Shown: positions 29,689 to 33,478 of the stretch, in pieces | Layout: the number at the start of each line of letters is the position of its first letter | Numbering within the stretch: the first letter of the stretch is position 1 | NCBI GenBank assembly: GCA_027486675.1 | Contig: JAIXOQ010000005.1 | Coordinates: 310,001-374,000, forward strand | Length of the DNA stretch: 64,000 bases | Direction of reading: 5' to 3' | Source: Pseudomonadota bacterium | GTDB lineage: Bacteria > Bdellovibrionota > UBA1018 > CAIMNF01 | Position numbers and translations under genes: made by a program | The notes under the pieces: model-generated | The model's input: the letters and a program-made list of their open reading frames with translations, nothing else | Told to the model about the DNA's origin: nothing | The model's database searches: none

Positions 29689-30340
29689 AGATGATCCTGG
29701 ATCACAGTTTGTCTACAAGGATGCTCTATCCATTCGCGCCGAAGTTTTCGTCGTAGCGACACTTGCGGAGTTGAAGGCGATCATCCAAAAGCCGTCGAAG
29801 ACTTTTGACCTCTTAATAGCAGATCTAATGGTACCGGATGGGAATTTCCTCCGATGGATAGGTGCCATGCGCGAGACCAAGTTACGTCTCCCACCATTCA
29901 TCGTCGTTTCTTCGGCAGATGATCTCGATATCCTAAGGCAGTGTTACGGCTATGGCGCGATCGATTACCTCACAAAGCCCTTTAGAAAGAATGAGCTCAT
30001 CATCAAAGTTGAAAGAGCGATCGAATCTACACACATACCCACCCTTCCGGAAGGACTCTTTGCGCAAAATGCCTTGGCGATCCCAACCGCAAAAGGCGAC
30101 GTCGCACTCACGCTAAAAGAGTCGGCAGCTTTCCTATCCCTTTCTCGGGCTGGTGCCTCAGGCGTCTATCGGAAGGATTTACAAAAAAGTCTTTGGGATG
30201 ATGAGGTCGTCTCCGAAAAAGCACTCGACGTTCATATCCACAATCTCCGCAAAAAACTGGAACATTCTGACTATAGAATTGCACTGACGAAAGAGGGAAG
30301 GTACCGCCTGACAAGTGCAAAAGATCAACAGATCGGATGA
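29657..30340 (+). CDS. Response regulator, OmpR-like with winged-helix output
   Basis: 227 residues. The receiver domain has the acidic pair EDD near residue 12, the phospho-acceptor Asp56 (LLIADLMVPDG), a conserved Ser (VVSSADD) and Lys (DYLTKPF). The C-terminal domain (about 140-220) fits the Trans_reg_C winged helix, with VVSEKALDVHIHNLRKKLE as recognition region and a KEGRYRLT end. It is the partner of the kinase at 27997. The gene is convergent with the YcaO gene and the ends overlap by 16 bases, so the two transcripts could influence one another. Confidence 0.9.
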   Translation: MHPTKKLLVLEDDPGSQFVYKDALSIRAEVFVVATLAELKAIIQKPSKTFDLLIADLMVPDGNFLRWIGAMRETKLRLPPFIVVSSADDLDILRQCYGYGAIDYLTKPFRKNELIIKVERAIESTHIPTLPEGLFAQNALAIPTAKGDVALTLKESAAFLSLSRAGASGVYRKDLQKSLWDDEVVSEKALDVHIHNLRKKLEHSDYRIALTKEGRYRLTSAKDQQIG

Positions 30341-31215
30341 GGAATTCCCTCAAAGCTGTAATCATTGCCAAACTTCAGAGGCAGTAACCCTGGGTGCTCG
30401 GCTTTCACCACAATGCCAGAATCGGCATGTGGGACAGAGAGCACTTCATAATTTGCATCCGCCAATTGTAAGGCTTGCGTCTCCGCTTTAGTTTTAAATA
30501 TTTTCTGCCTGCCGCGGATCAGCCAACGCATCAGATGCTTGTGACTTCCTGGATAAAGATAGTACTCCTGATGAAAGTCTGGGGTGGAAGAGACCTCTGG
30601 CAATCCATTTGGGATATCCTGTCCCCAAAGAAATGCAAGCCGCTGTTCCGCTTCAGCAATTGCCTTACCGTTGGCTTCCTGCTGCGACGCACGGGCACAG
30701 CCAAATCCATAAAAAATAGGGATGCCTTCAACACGGGGAAAGCCACACGCGAATGACACCGAATACCCTGGAACCGATGATTCAATGCGAGCAACCACAA
30801 GGCGGTAGTGTTCCTCCCACAGTGCCGGATCTTTAAAAGAAACAACCCAATCTCCGATCGCCTTGTAATCAAATCGAAGGGCTGCATCTCCGGACCAGGA
30901 TCGAAGTAGCGCATCTCTTTCGATCAGTTCCATAAGTGCCGATTCTTCTGCACGAGGAACGTCATCGTGAAAGGCTACTCCGTTTGAGCGACTCATACCC
31001 GGGAGACTTGGCTTAGGCTGAGCAACGATCGTCATCCGCTCTAACATTTCATATTTCGCCAAGACCGTAGGATCCCTGAAGCGCGACGCAGAACTCCCGT
31101 GGGCTGCGCCAAGTACAGGATGCGTTGCTTCATAGGCGCAAAGAGAAAAGGTCTCGCCTAAGATCTCTTCTTTCTCAAACAGCGCTAACTGAAGGCTCCA
31201 ATCCGTGCCCGTCAT
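30325..31215 (-). CDS. YcaO-domain protein, probable peptide backbone-modifying enzyme
   Basis: 296 residues from the ATG at 31215, which overlaps the upstream stop as ATGA; an ATG at 31227 would add four residues. The sequence carries the YcaO pattern: an ExxE pair in AKYEMLERM, then SRSNGVAFHDDVPRAEESA, the second helix ALMELIERDALLRSW with two Glu, and a C-terminal NDYSFEGIPHPIC that matches the usual family ending near HPxP. YcaO enzymes use ATP to activate backbone amides and make azolines, thioamides or amidines in ribosomal peptides. No TfuA, E1-like or dehydrogenase partner is present. Last gene of the operon at 30325-32611. It is short for the family but appears to hold the whole core. 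Confidence 0.82.
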   Translation of the reverse strand: MTGTDWSLQLALFEKEEILGETFSLCAYEATHPVLGAAHGSSASRFRDPTVLAKYEMLERMTIVAQPKPSLPGMSRSNGVAFHDDVPRAEESALMELIERDALLRSWSGDAALRFDYKAIGDWVVSFKDPALWEEHYRLVVARIESSVPGYSVSFACGFPRVEGIPIFYGFGCARASQQEANGKAIAEAEQRLAFLWGQDIPNGLPEVSSTPDFHQEYYLYPGSHKHLMRWLIRGRQKIFKTKAETQALQLADANYEVLSVPHADSGIVVKAEHPGLLPLKFGNDYSFEGIPHPIC

Positions 31216-31868
31216 TCGCGAGCACATTCTTCGAAGAATGCTGAGAGCAAAATCGAAGACTGCTGCACGACGCTATTGAAACGGTCCCGTACAGCTGGGT
31301 CCTGAAATCGACTTTCGATCAGTTCAAAGTTTTCTTCCGCATGGCCCACATCTAAAACAACATGATTCGATAAAGCGCTGATCTTGCTCTTGTCTAATCC
31401 GTTTTCCGACGTGCATTCAAGAAACCTGGGCCCTAAGTAGGTGGTCATGTATTCAGCAAACGAAACATAACCCAGATAATAGAATGGATCGAGATCTGCT
31501 AAATAATGACCAAAGTCACATATGAACTGTGCGGATTCGGGTTGAACTTTGGGCATAGACCCTTTCTCTGGGGCAGAGACAAATTTTAGGTCGTCGCGGG
31601 CCCACTGATCATGCCCTAGCTCTTCGTCTCTTTTTGCACTAAAGAACCGAGCGAGCTCCTCATCCCCGTTTGCGCTCGCCTTATCCGCAGCAAGAGAGAG
31701 ATTTCTATAAGAAGCCTTAAACAACATCTCCAGTCCAGAAAGGTACTTTCGGAGACTGCTGGGTGGAAGCTTAGAAGTCCTTGCGACTTCAAAGAAGGGG
31801 TTCTTCTTCCACATCTCTTCAGACAACTCTTCAATTCGTAACTTCACACTCACATTGGCTTCAGCCAT
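31212..31868 (-). CDS. Heme-oxygenase-like diiron enzyme (HDO family)
   Basis: 218 residues, all-helical. The metal-binding pattern of heme-oxygenase-like diiron oxidases is complete: Glu83 and His86 (EELGH), Glu139 (SFAEYM), and the H-x3-D-x2-H motif His169, Asp173, His176 (NHVVLDVGH). Family relatives include UndA, BesC, SznF and the chlamydial CADD, which oxidise or fragment amino acids and fatty acids with O2. PqqC/TenA proteins share the fold but lack this metal set. The ATG has an AGGGAG site and follows a hairpin 60 bases after the ten-residue ORF. The stop overlaps the YcaO start. Context suggests it oxidises the small peptide. Confidence 0.8.
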   Translation of the reverse strand: MAEANVSVKLRIEELSEEMWKKNPFFEVARTSKLPPSSLRKYLSGLEMLFKASYRNLSLAADKASANGDEELARFFSAKRDEELGHDQWARDDLKFVSAPEKGSMPKVQPESAQFICDFGHYLADLDPFYYLGYVSFAEYMTTYLGPRFLECTSENGLDKSKISALSNHVVLDVGHAEENFELIESRFQDPAVRDRFNSVVQQSSILLSAFFEECARE

Positions 31869-31893
31869 AATTTACTCCCTAAAATTTTATGGT

Positions 31894-31920
31894 GTGGGTG
31901 CGTTGTTGGTCCGCACCCAC
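31894..31920 (-). promoter_or_regulatory. Intercistronic hairpin between mini-ORF and diiron-enzyme gene
   Basis: A 9-bp perfect stem (GTGGGTGCG / CGCACCCAC, arms 31912-31920 and 31894-31902) with a 9-base loop. It starts nine bases after the mini-ORF stop. No long T run follows, so it looks more like an attenuator or mRNA-stability element than a full terminator. Confidence 0.75.
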
Positions 31921-31928
31921 CTGAACAA

Positions 31929-31961
31929 TTACATGCTGGCGTGTGCGTATTTCTTTCTCAT
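31929..31961 (-). CDS. Ten-residue ORF, candidate precursor peptide
   Basis: ATG AGA AAG AAA TAC GCA CAC GCC AGC ATG TAA encodes MRKKYAHASM. The evidence for translation is strong: a perfect AAGGAGG site 7 bases upstream and an ATGA overlap with the stop of the GNAT gene. It sits between genes for a GNAT acyltransferase, a diiron enzyme and a YcaO protein, so a ribosomally made, modified peptide is the favoured reading. There is no Cys or Thr; the modifiable residues are Tyr5, His7, Ser9, the Lys side chains and the two Met. It is longer than the MccA heptapeptide of microcin C and far shorter than most precursors. A regulatory leader peptide is the main alternative. Confidence 0.65.
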   Translation of the reverse strand: MRKKYAHASM

Positions 31962-32611
31962 GTGGATTCCTCCTTTCCGAACTTTCCGTGACAAAACTGT
32001 TGGTCAAAAATTCTTCGTGACGTGCCATCAAGCAGCAGGGTGAATTGAGTCATCGCGCCCCAACGTTCAGTGAGGTTGACACCGGTGATTCGAAACCCAA
32101 GACGATTGAGGACATGCACATGGCCAAAGTTACTCGCCGCGACATCGCCGGTAATGCGGGATACGCCGACCTTGCGAAGAACCGTAATCAAACCGGAAAG
32201 GAAGGCGGAATAGATCCCTAAACCCTGATAACGGGGAAGGATGGAGCAATTGCGGAAGTAATAGCTCGACCAATCGACGGTGTTGCCAGCAAAGATACCC
32301 ACAAGACGATCTGCTGAGAAAAACCCATAAAAGTCTCCACACAGCGCATAAAACCTCGCCTTGCGTTCTACAGGTTCAAACGCCAAAAAAGGTGAGGCGA
32401 CTGCGCCAAGTTGGTAGATCTCTGCGGCATGCATGGTGTAAAAATCAAAAGCTTCCGTGGCGCCAATCACTCTCAGTTCAATATTGTGGGGTAGGTCAAT
32501 GGAGCTGAGATCGGCAGCGGATAGACCAAATGCCGCTTCAGTGAGCGGGGAGAACTGGCCAGAAGACGGATGTTTTTCCAGGTTGATCGCTTCCAACGTC
32601 TTTAAGTTCAC
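31958..32611 (-). CDS. GNAT-family N-acyltransferase
   Basis: 217 residues from GTG at 32611. The C-terminal half is a GNAT fold: the acyl-CoA pyrophosphate loop PRYQGLGIYSAFL (Q-x-x-G-x-G type, about 130-142), a preceding beta strand (SSYYFRNCSIL) and the late NRLGFRITGV element. The N-terminal 90 residues are not recognised. It would acetylate or acylate an amine, possibly the N-terminus or a Lys of the peptide encoded directly downstream (inference). The final codons also hold the ribosome-binding site of the mini-ORF. First gene of the operon and divergent from the protease-like gene at 32723. Confidence 0.8.
   Translation of the reverse strand: MNLKTLEAINLEKHPSSGQFSPLTEAAFGLSAADLSSIDLPHNIELRVIGATEAFDFYTMHAAEIYQLGAVASPFLAFEPVERKARFYALCGDFYGFFSADRLVGIFAGNTVDWSSYYFRNCSILPRYQGLGIYSAFLSGLITVLRKVGVSRITGDVAASNFGHVHVLNRLGFRITGVNLTERWGAMTQFTLLLDGTSRRIFDQQFCHGKFGKEEST
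31969..31975 (-). promoter_or_regulatory. Perfect ribosome-binding site of the mini-ORF
   Basis: AAGGAGG, fully complementary to the 16S rRNA 3' end, 7 bases before the ATG of the ten-residue ORF. It is stronger than the sites of the surrounding genes, which implies a high peptide-to-enzyme ratio. Confidence 0.8.
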
Positions 32612-32722
32612 GCTGTTTCGTTGGATTCATCAATTTAAGTTGTTGTGGTCCAGTGGTTAGGTTTTGTTAACCCGTACAACGACCTTTTCGTGCCCAGATT
32701 CATGGACCAAACTCTGGCCCAT

Positions 32723-33478
32723 ATGCGAATCGCAATGACCTTGGTCTGTGCCGCTCTTTCTGCAGTCTCTTTCTCTATTGCCAATGCCGCTCCAAAGTAC
32801 GGCCCAAAGGTTCAGCCGCTTTCGGCTGGAACCAACGCCAAATATTTTAGGAACAACGATGCGCCCGACTATTGGGCACTCAGTCCCTACTATCTTCCAC
32901 AAGAAACCCCGCGCGGATGTTCGGCAGGAAACCTGGCCATGCTGCTGAACACGGTTCGGGGCGCAAAAAGTCTTCAGTCGGACGAAGAGCTGATCACTTA
33001 CAAATCCTTCGTGGAAAACTATACCGATCCTGCTTACAAAGCGGCAGTCAGCGGGGCGACGAGAACCCCGGGGGAAAATTTTTCTAACAAAAATATGACG
33101 CGCCTTTTTGCGGAGGCAGCAAAGAAACTTAAAAAGGGAATCGCACCGACCCAAGTCGAGTTCTTTCAAGTCGATCAAAACAACGTTGAAAAAAGTAGAG
33201 CTGCTTTCTTAAAAGCACTCAGAGAAAACGAAAAATCAGCAGACGATTTTATCTTCTTTAGCTTTGTTCAAGGACAAGTCACCGGTGACCCCGAAGGCGG
33301 TGCACACGTGGCGACCGTTGCTGCATACGATGAAAAGCCCGGCCTCGTTCTGGTGCTCGACCCAGATCGCCAGTGGTACGAGCCTTACTGGGTTTCAGCG
33401 AACGACCTCTTTGAATCCATCCGTGATCCAAAGTCAGACAGCCGCAAAGAAGCGGGCTGGATCTACTTTAAGAAGTAG
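32723..33478 (+). CDS. Exported phytochelatin-synthase-like cysteine peptidase
   Basis: 251 residues from the ATG at 32723 (MRIAMTLVCAALSAVSFSIANAA), chosen because it starts a clean signal peptide; starts at 32645 or 32702 would bury it. The mature part resembles peptidase family C83: a catalytic Cys in QETPRGCSAGNLAMLLN, a His in GGAHVATVAAYD and an Asp in LVLDPDRQWYEPYWVS, in the right order and spacing. Bacterial members usually remove glycine from glutathione or act as proteases. It is divergent from the GNAT gene, so it may share a control region with the peptide operon. A periplasmic peptidase could trim or clear a peptide, but that is speculation. Confidence 0.65.
   Translation: MRIAMTLVCAALSAVSFSIANAAPKYGPKVQPLSAGTNAKYFRNNDAPDYWALSPYYLPQETPRGCSAGNLAMLLNTVRGAKSLQSDEELITYKSFVENYTDPAYKAAVSGATRTPGENFSNKNMTRLFAEAAKKLKKGIAPTQVEFFQVDQNNVEKSRAAFLKALRENEKSADDFIFFSFVQGQVTGDPEGGAHVATVAAYDEKPGLVLVLDPDRQWYEPYWVSANDLFESIRDPKSDSRKEAGWIYFKK

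Follow-up and report, generated by a model that had tools for sequence, protein, structure and literature searches.

Relation to described systems

A YcaO protein and a heme-oxygenase-like protein are combined in the thiovarsolins (varAYTO), in which VarY is the YcaO protein, the heme-oxygenase-like VarO is needed for dehydrogenation, and N-acetylation has been attributed to an unlinked host enzyme (PMC6511847). A very short precursor of constrained length is found in microcin C, with a terminator hairpin between mccA and mccB (PMC6495379). Here we describe an operon in a 64,000-nucleotide stretch of a genome of the Bdellovibrionota (contig JAIXOQ010000005.1, positions 310,001 to 374,000; the window), in which a ten-codon gene, the mini-open reading frame (mini-ORF), lies together with genes for a GNAT acyltransferase, a heme-oxygenase-like diiron protein (HDO) and a YcaO protein. 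We propose that this is, with good probability, a pathway for an ultrashort ribosomally synthesized and post-translationally modified peptide (RiPP), in which the YcaO, the GNAT and either the HDO or a radical-SAM enzyme would modify the mini-ORF peptide. The parts of the locus, in window coordinates, are:

32611-31958, minus strand: GNAT acyltransferase, 217 amino acids, GTG start, first gene of the operon; PF00583 and PF13420 above the Pfam cut-offs
31975-31969, minus strand: Shine-Dalgarno sequence AAGGAGG, 7 bases 5' of the mini-ORF ATG
31961-31929, minus strand: mini-ORF encoding MRKKYAHASM, the proposed precursor (ATGAGAAAGAAATACGCACACGCCAGCATGTAA), read from the sequence
about 31920-31894, minus strand: stem-loop (GGTGGGTGCG...CGCACCCACACC) between mini-ORF and HDO, from a fold of the spacer
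31868-31212, minus strand: HDO, from alignment, PDB profile match and AlphaFold model
31227-30325, minus strand: YcaO protein, short and standalone, 300 amino acids, PF02624
29657-30340, plus strand: OmpR/PhoB-type response regulator, PF00072 and PF00486
27997-29688, plus strand: membrane histidine kinase, PF02518 at 1e-10, with about five transmembrane segments predicted from hydropathy in the first 260 residues

An earlier annotation made without database searches (the sequence-only reading) had placed the GNAT, mini-ORF, hairpin, HDO and YcaO on one strand, and every part is present, as are the AAGGAGG at 7 bases and the overlap of GNAT stop and mini-ORF start as ATGA. The ATGA junction that it described between HDO and YcaO is in fact a 16-base overlap of the two genes (31212-31227), and the named parts stood while the linked kinase and regulator genes and the optional nature of the HDO had gone unrecognized. 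The 3' ends of YcaO and the response regulator gene overlap tail-to-tail, also by 16 bases. The 60-nucleotide spacer between mini-ORF and HDO folds at -18.8 kcal/mol (z -2.9), and no Rfam family matched the stem-loop region.

The locus shares with the thiovarsolins a YcaO and a heme-oxygenase-like protein linked to a ribosomal peptide, the products there being small and N-acetylated. It differs in having a precursor of 9-10 residues instead of a long repeat precursor, a GNAT within the operon, a linked kinase and regulator, and no TfuA, which the thiovarsolins need (PMC6511847). TfuA (PF07812) was absent from 12 whole genomes, including that of the window, in a search whose positive control matched; TfuA-dependent thioamidation is rejected on this ground, and a thiovarsolin-type thioamide route is not expected. 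The likeness to microcin C lies in a very short precursor of fixed length, a strong Shine-Dalgarno site and a hairpin between precursor and enzyme genes, but microcin C uses the ThiF-type adenylyltransferase MccB on the C-terminus of precursors whose sequences are unconserved (PMC6495379). Here there is a conserved C-terminal motif together with YcaO, HDO or radical SAM, and GNAT, and no MccB-type adenylyltransferase gene is conserved in the loci. Streptamidine and other standalone-YcaO RiPPs likewise have an unfused YcaO and a small unannotated precursor, but there the precursors have 31-89 residues and no S/T/C-rich regions, and the YcaO is accompanied by an E1-like partner and a hydrolase (PMC8442711). 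The heterocyclases of linear azol(in)es and cyanobactins (TruD, LynD) share the ATP-binding residues, the closest profile similarity and an S/C/T at the expected site of the peptide; in our loci, by contrast, no E1-like/RRE domain (fused or separate) was seen, and there is no FMN dehydrogenase and no long leader. A literature search of partial coverage for a pathway with HDO, YcaO and GNAT returned only thiovarsolin-type precedents. The claim of the sequence-only reading that no pathway with this trio is described has to be qualified, as the thiovarsolins have the pair of YcaO and heme-oxygenase-like protein (PMC6511847).

A conserved peptide gene of 9-10 codons

Loci were collected by homology searches of related genomes, and their enzymes are mostly 23-36% identical to those of the window. 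Reading every short open reading frame in the gap 5' of the HDO, with no sequence filter, gave 13 peptides: MRKKYAHASM (the window's own), MKKKFAQISF (L002), MKKKFAQHCL (L003), MKKKYAKICT (L004), MKKKFAQLSF (L005), MKKRFAQSCI (L017), MKKFATMTF (L030), MKKRFALNCL (L033), VKKKFAHMSF (L036), VKKRFALITH (L038), MRRKFALYSF (L049), MMKKFAQYCI (L050) and MKKYGFVTV (L051). A fourteenth unfiltered peptide, MKIKFAAICF (L102), was read from sequence, and pattern searches added nine more: MKKFATGTF, VKKFARTSL, MRKKFALACY, MKKQFALICF, MKKKFALLSF, MKKRYALVTW, MKKRYATLSF, MKKRYATISF and MKKKFAHITA. The 23 independent loci come from Bdellovibrio-like bacteria and Myxococcota, and the mini-ORF always has 9-10 codons. 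No locus with intact upstream DNA was without a peptide.

All 23 peptides fit M-[basic]2-3-[F/Y]-[A/G]-x-x-[S/C/T]-x-stop. Counting back from the stop, position -6 is F or Y (F in 17 of 23), position -5 is A in 22 peptides and G in 1, and position -2 is S in 9, C in 8 and T in 6. The residue at -2 is S, C or T in 14/14 of the unfiltered peptides, against a background of 0.16 (probability about 1e-11). The sequence-only reading had proposed oxidation at Tyr5, His7 or the C-terminal Met. These sites are not supported: the relatives do not keep His7 or Met10, Tyr5 alternates with Phe, and the fixed positions are F/Y5, A6 and S/C/T9.

The constraint acts on the amino acids. Across the 23 loci each of the four Ala codons and both Ser codon boxes are found, Lys/Arg vary freely, and each of the three stop codons is used; the minimum of amino-acid entropy falls in the reading frame of the mini-ORF. 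A G-rich Shine-Dalgarno site lies ahead of every mini-ORF. Conservation of the mini-ORF and its ribosome-binding site with synonymous changes was a check set beforehand, and both are kept in all relatives having upstream DNA. A degenerate pattern of Shine-Dalgarno site plus mini-ORF matched in 6/57 genomes of the class, always within GNAT/YcaO loci, and a reversed control pattern gave 0 matches in the same 57 genomes; the G050 locus was newly found by the peptide pattern alone. The pattern search with its reversed control, together with the synonymous codon variation, rules out a chance short open reading frame. No same-genus genome pairs were found among the relatives.

The immediate surroundings of the mini-ORF vary more. 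It overlaps the GNAT gene as ATGA in six loci, and most others are non-overlapping, with gaps of up to 127 bases; the start codon is GTG in L036, L038 and L085. A stem-loop lies 3' of most of the 16 mini-ORFs folded, is terminator-like with a T run in some loci (L005, L083), and was not evident after one of those examined (L036, 7690-8030). Many of the GNATs end in F-x-x-Q-[FYL]-C right before the mini-ORF, a motif that was not seen in L004 and L005; it may have a function or reflect a constraint on codons where the genes overlap.

The YcaO and HDO assignments

Both enzyme assignments of the sequence-only reading held up against profile hidden Markov models, the HDO through its family. The YcaO of the window passes the PF02624 cut-off (2e-10), and PF02624 is found in 12/12 family members. 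Residues E60, E63, R64, S81, G83, E100, E103, R104, E192 and Q195 are invariant, which covers the Glu/Arg/Ser/Gln set of the ATP site, and the C-terminus is HP[IVF]x in the family alignment. The profile for thiazole/oxazole-forming proteins, TIGR03604, matches 12/12 YcaOs below its cut-off (window protein 36.8 bits, 219 required). The nearest PDB sequences are TruD, MusD and LynD, and the best fold matches of the model are standalone archaeal YcaOs, McbD and E. coli YcaO.

The HDO of the window itself scores below the gathering threshold of PF14518 (15.0 vs 28.9 bits; E 0.022), while its L003 orthologue passes (39.2 bits) and 10/14 family members match at E<=0.01, the best at 8e-10. The family profile matches the PDB entry 3dde at 4e-17. 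The AlphaFold model (pLDDT 92) matches heme-oxygenase-like structures at a TM-score of 0.82, with 3dde, CADD, UndA and BesC as best fold matches. The metal set H-x3-D-x2-H had been reported as complete, and indeed all ligands (E83, H86, E139, H169, D173 and H176; ExxH, E, HxxxDxxH) are present and invariant in 14 HDO sequences; when UndA is aligned with them, its ExxH and HxxxDxxH fall into register.

Variation in gene order and a candidate replacement of the HDO

All 23 mini-ORFs lie beside a GNAT, HDO, YcaO or kinase gene, and which gene follows the peptide varies: HDO in most loci, YcaO in G049, G050, G116, G118, G119 and G121, and a kinase in G632. The order in G666 is YcaO-GNAT-peptide-HDO. 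Most loci carry GNAT orthologues; L102 (G049) has instead a GNAT of an unrelated subfamily (PF13302), and the GNAT of L002 looks interrupted. HDO paralogues without YcaO (L040-L043, L052-L054, L071, L072) carry no mini-ORF and were not counted as additional members. Another PF14518 HDO was seen in L026 (1447-2834, plus strand), its stop overlapping a GNAT that weakly resembles the N-acyl amino acid synthase FeeM. These two may form a second HDO-acyltransferase pair, one that lacks both YcaO and mini-ORF.

Among the flanking genes, just one further family recurred in several of the loci and went with the system. Its members are B12-binding radical-SAM proteins of about 510-570 amino acids, encoded beside and divergent from the GNAT in G049, G050, G118, G119 and G121:

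L083, 6204-7925: B12 radical-SAM protein beside GNAT
L115, 5207-6784: B12 radical-SAM protein beside GNAT
L116, 8627-10156: B12 radical-SAM protein beside GNAT
L117, 2851-4473: B12 radical-SAM protein beside GNAT
L119, 4934-6541: B12 radical-SAM protein beside GNAT

All HDO-less loci that have a peptide-YcaO junction and sufficient flanking DNA carry it (5/5), and no HDO locus does. The five proteins are 27-47% identical pairwise, and the peptides of HDO loci and radical-SAM loci show no visible difference. The distribution suggests that the HDO is optional and is probably replaced by the B12 radical-SAM enzyme, a candidate O2-independent substitute. There is a parallel in the E ring step of chlorophyll synthesis, which is served in different organisms by AcsF, a diiron enzyme that uses O2, and by BchE, a B12 radical-SAM enzyme that takes the oxygen from water; that swap is proven, whereas ours is read from which loci hold which gene (PMC13142503). 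A second, distantly related B12 radical-SAM protein is encoded near the G119 locus (L119 10949-12385, plus strand), its best NCBIfam match being BchE, below cut-off.

Linked kinase and regulator genes

Nearly every locus has a kinase or regulator gene linked to it. Loci of the Bdellovibrionota type carry genes for a membrane histidine kinase (4-5 hydrophobic segments by hydropathy in most) and an OmpR-type regulator, in tail-to-tail orientation to YcaO. Myxococcota loci have instead a protein of about 1750-1840 amino acids with Pkinase-AAA_16-GAF-HisKA-HATPase-REC architecture (L030, L032, L036); the L038 protein has no detectable Pkinase (Ser/Thr kinase) domain, and homologues were also found in L033, L084, L085 and L127.

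L036, 9788-15172: giant hybrid kinase
L030, 3766-9048: giant hybrid kinase
L032, 1772-7294: giant hybrid kinase
L038, 8970-14231: giant hybrid kinase

G666 has an OmpR-type DNA-binding protein only. G129 is the one locus with neither kinase nor regulator, and its contig ends about 110 bases past YcaO. The linkage suggests that the product is a signal or is under tight regulation, and fits either sensing or control. A phytochelatin-synthase-like protein (PF05023, 5.7e-18) is encoded in the window at 32645-33478 on the plus strand, divergent from the GNAT. It probably lies outside the system, because no homologue was present in the other loci tested.

Proposed pathway and alternatives

The conserved mini-ORF, its ribosome-binding site and the enzyme families support the view, already taken in the sequence-only reading, that the locus is a candidate pathway for a RiPP whose precursor is the mini-ORF peptide. 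From the sequences we infer the following chemical steps and function. The ribosome would make fMRKKYAHASM, of which the N-terminal Met and basic residues may be a minimal recognition part and the C-terminal hexapeptide [FY]-[A/G]-x-x-[SCT]-x the core. The standalone YcaO, driven by ATP, would cyclize the penultimate Ser, Cys or Thr onto the preceding carbonyl to give an azoline. The first step is most likely this azoline at position 9, since S, C and T are the residues that such YcaOs cyclize. The HDO, with O2 and its diiron centre, would then oxidize the peptide, most economically from azoline to azole or by another dehydrogenation, as VarO does; alternatively it may act at the conserved F/Y-A pair. 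In HDO-less loci the B12 radical-SAM enzyme would take over this oxidation, and the GNAT probably acylates a lysine or the freed N-terminus. The hairpin after the mini-ORF may raise the ratio of precursor to enzyme, as in microcin C, and the adjacent kinase and regulator may read the product or control its synthesis.

Several observations weigh against this proposal. GNAT lies 5' of the peptide in every locus having upstream DNA except G129, YcaO is on a separate contig in G373 and G632, and neither HDO nor radical-SAM gene adjoins the peptide in G632. The radical-SAM gene is divergent and outside the operon, and poor resolution of the YcaO tree prevents a count of the swaps between HDO and radical SAM. 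Our survey of the flanks found no dedicated protease or conserved exporter family and no conserved E1-like/RRE partner, a distant RRE not having been searched for. Most of the genomes compared are metagenome-assembled, and the nine pattern-found peptides show only that there was no exception, because the patterns demanded a penultimate S, C or T.

A small open reading frame with a strong Shine-Dalgarno site, in an invariant place after GNAT and followed by a hairpin that is terminator-like with a T run in L005 and L083, is also what a regulatory leader might look like, in which translation or stalling on the mini-ORF sets termination of the downstream gene and the peptide is discarded. We consider this quite improbable. 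The downstream gene changes among HDO, YcaO and kinase while the peptide stays constant, which argues against an attenuator leader of the HDO; L036 has the peptide without the hairpin, and HDO paralogues without YcaO have no such open reading frame. A leader also leaves unexplained the conserved S/C/T at -2 and F/Y-A at -6/-5, in peptides with no codon run for a single amino acid, and S, C and T have a common property only as YcaO substrates. The same conservation bears on the possibility that the GNAT, HDO and YcaO act on a protein (for example a ribosomal one) or a free amino acid, the mini-ORF serving only to couple translation. Standalone YcaO proteins can modify proteins, as with archaeal McrA, and the ATGA overlap with GNAT in six loci would suit coupling. 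Coupling, however, requires no conserved amino-acid sequence, and most mini-ORFs are clear of the GNAT stop by gaps of up to 127 bases, so that we regard this explanation as very improbable indeed.

A further alternative is a sub-case of the precursor reading, and its probability overlaps that of the pathway as a whole: a small molecule or redox cofactor would be excised from the F/Y-A or Ser region of the modified peptide, which would serve as its scaffold in the way PqqA does for PQQ, and the kinase pair would control synthesis only. The aromatic residue is invariant at -6, CADD, which oxidizes a tyrosine, is among the closest HDO structures, PQQ synthesis uses the same fold family, and no dedicated exporter was found in the flanks. 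We think a scaffold unlikely, as Phe exceeds Tyr (17/23), the C-terminal half is separately constrained through S/C/T at -2, and a membrane kinase with several transmembrane segments better fits a diffusible ligand. Returning to the RiPP pathway, we find it plausible from the gene linkage that its product is a signal. The full version, in which a deca- or nonapeptide with a heterocyclized penultimate residue, oxidized interchangeably by the aerobic diiron or the anaerobic B12 radical-SAM enzyme and acylated by the GNAT, diffuses as a signal to a dedicated membrane kinase or a giant cytosolic kinase, is offered tentatively and is somewhat less likely to be right than wrong.

Implications

RiPPs, YcaO proteins and HDO enzymes have all been described before; we found no account that combines a precursor of this size, this set of genes, the exchange of enzymes and a linked kinase. 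The recurrence of a tiny gene with these enzymes and a kinase points to a family of very small modified peptides that has not been described and whose members may be chemical signals. If so, this would be a RiPP family with precursors among the shortest known, below the reach of ordinary gene callers and apparently unnoticed in two phyla, for which [FY][AG]xx[SCT]x-stop beside a GNAT can serve as a search tool. It raises the questions of how a YcaO can recognize a substrate of ten residues that has no normal-sized leader, and whether the same reaction on a peptide is carried out by a diiron oxidase and by a B12 radical-SAM enzyme. It also raises the question of whether a modified short peptide acts as a signal to the linked kinase in Bdellovibrio-like bacteria and myxobacteria; if it does, predatory bacteria would have a cell-cell signal of a new class, with the membrane histidine kinase as receptor in Bdellovibrionota and the giant cytosolic hybrid kinase in Myxococcota.

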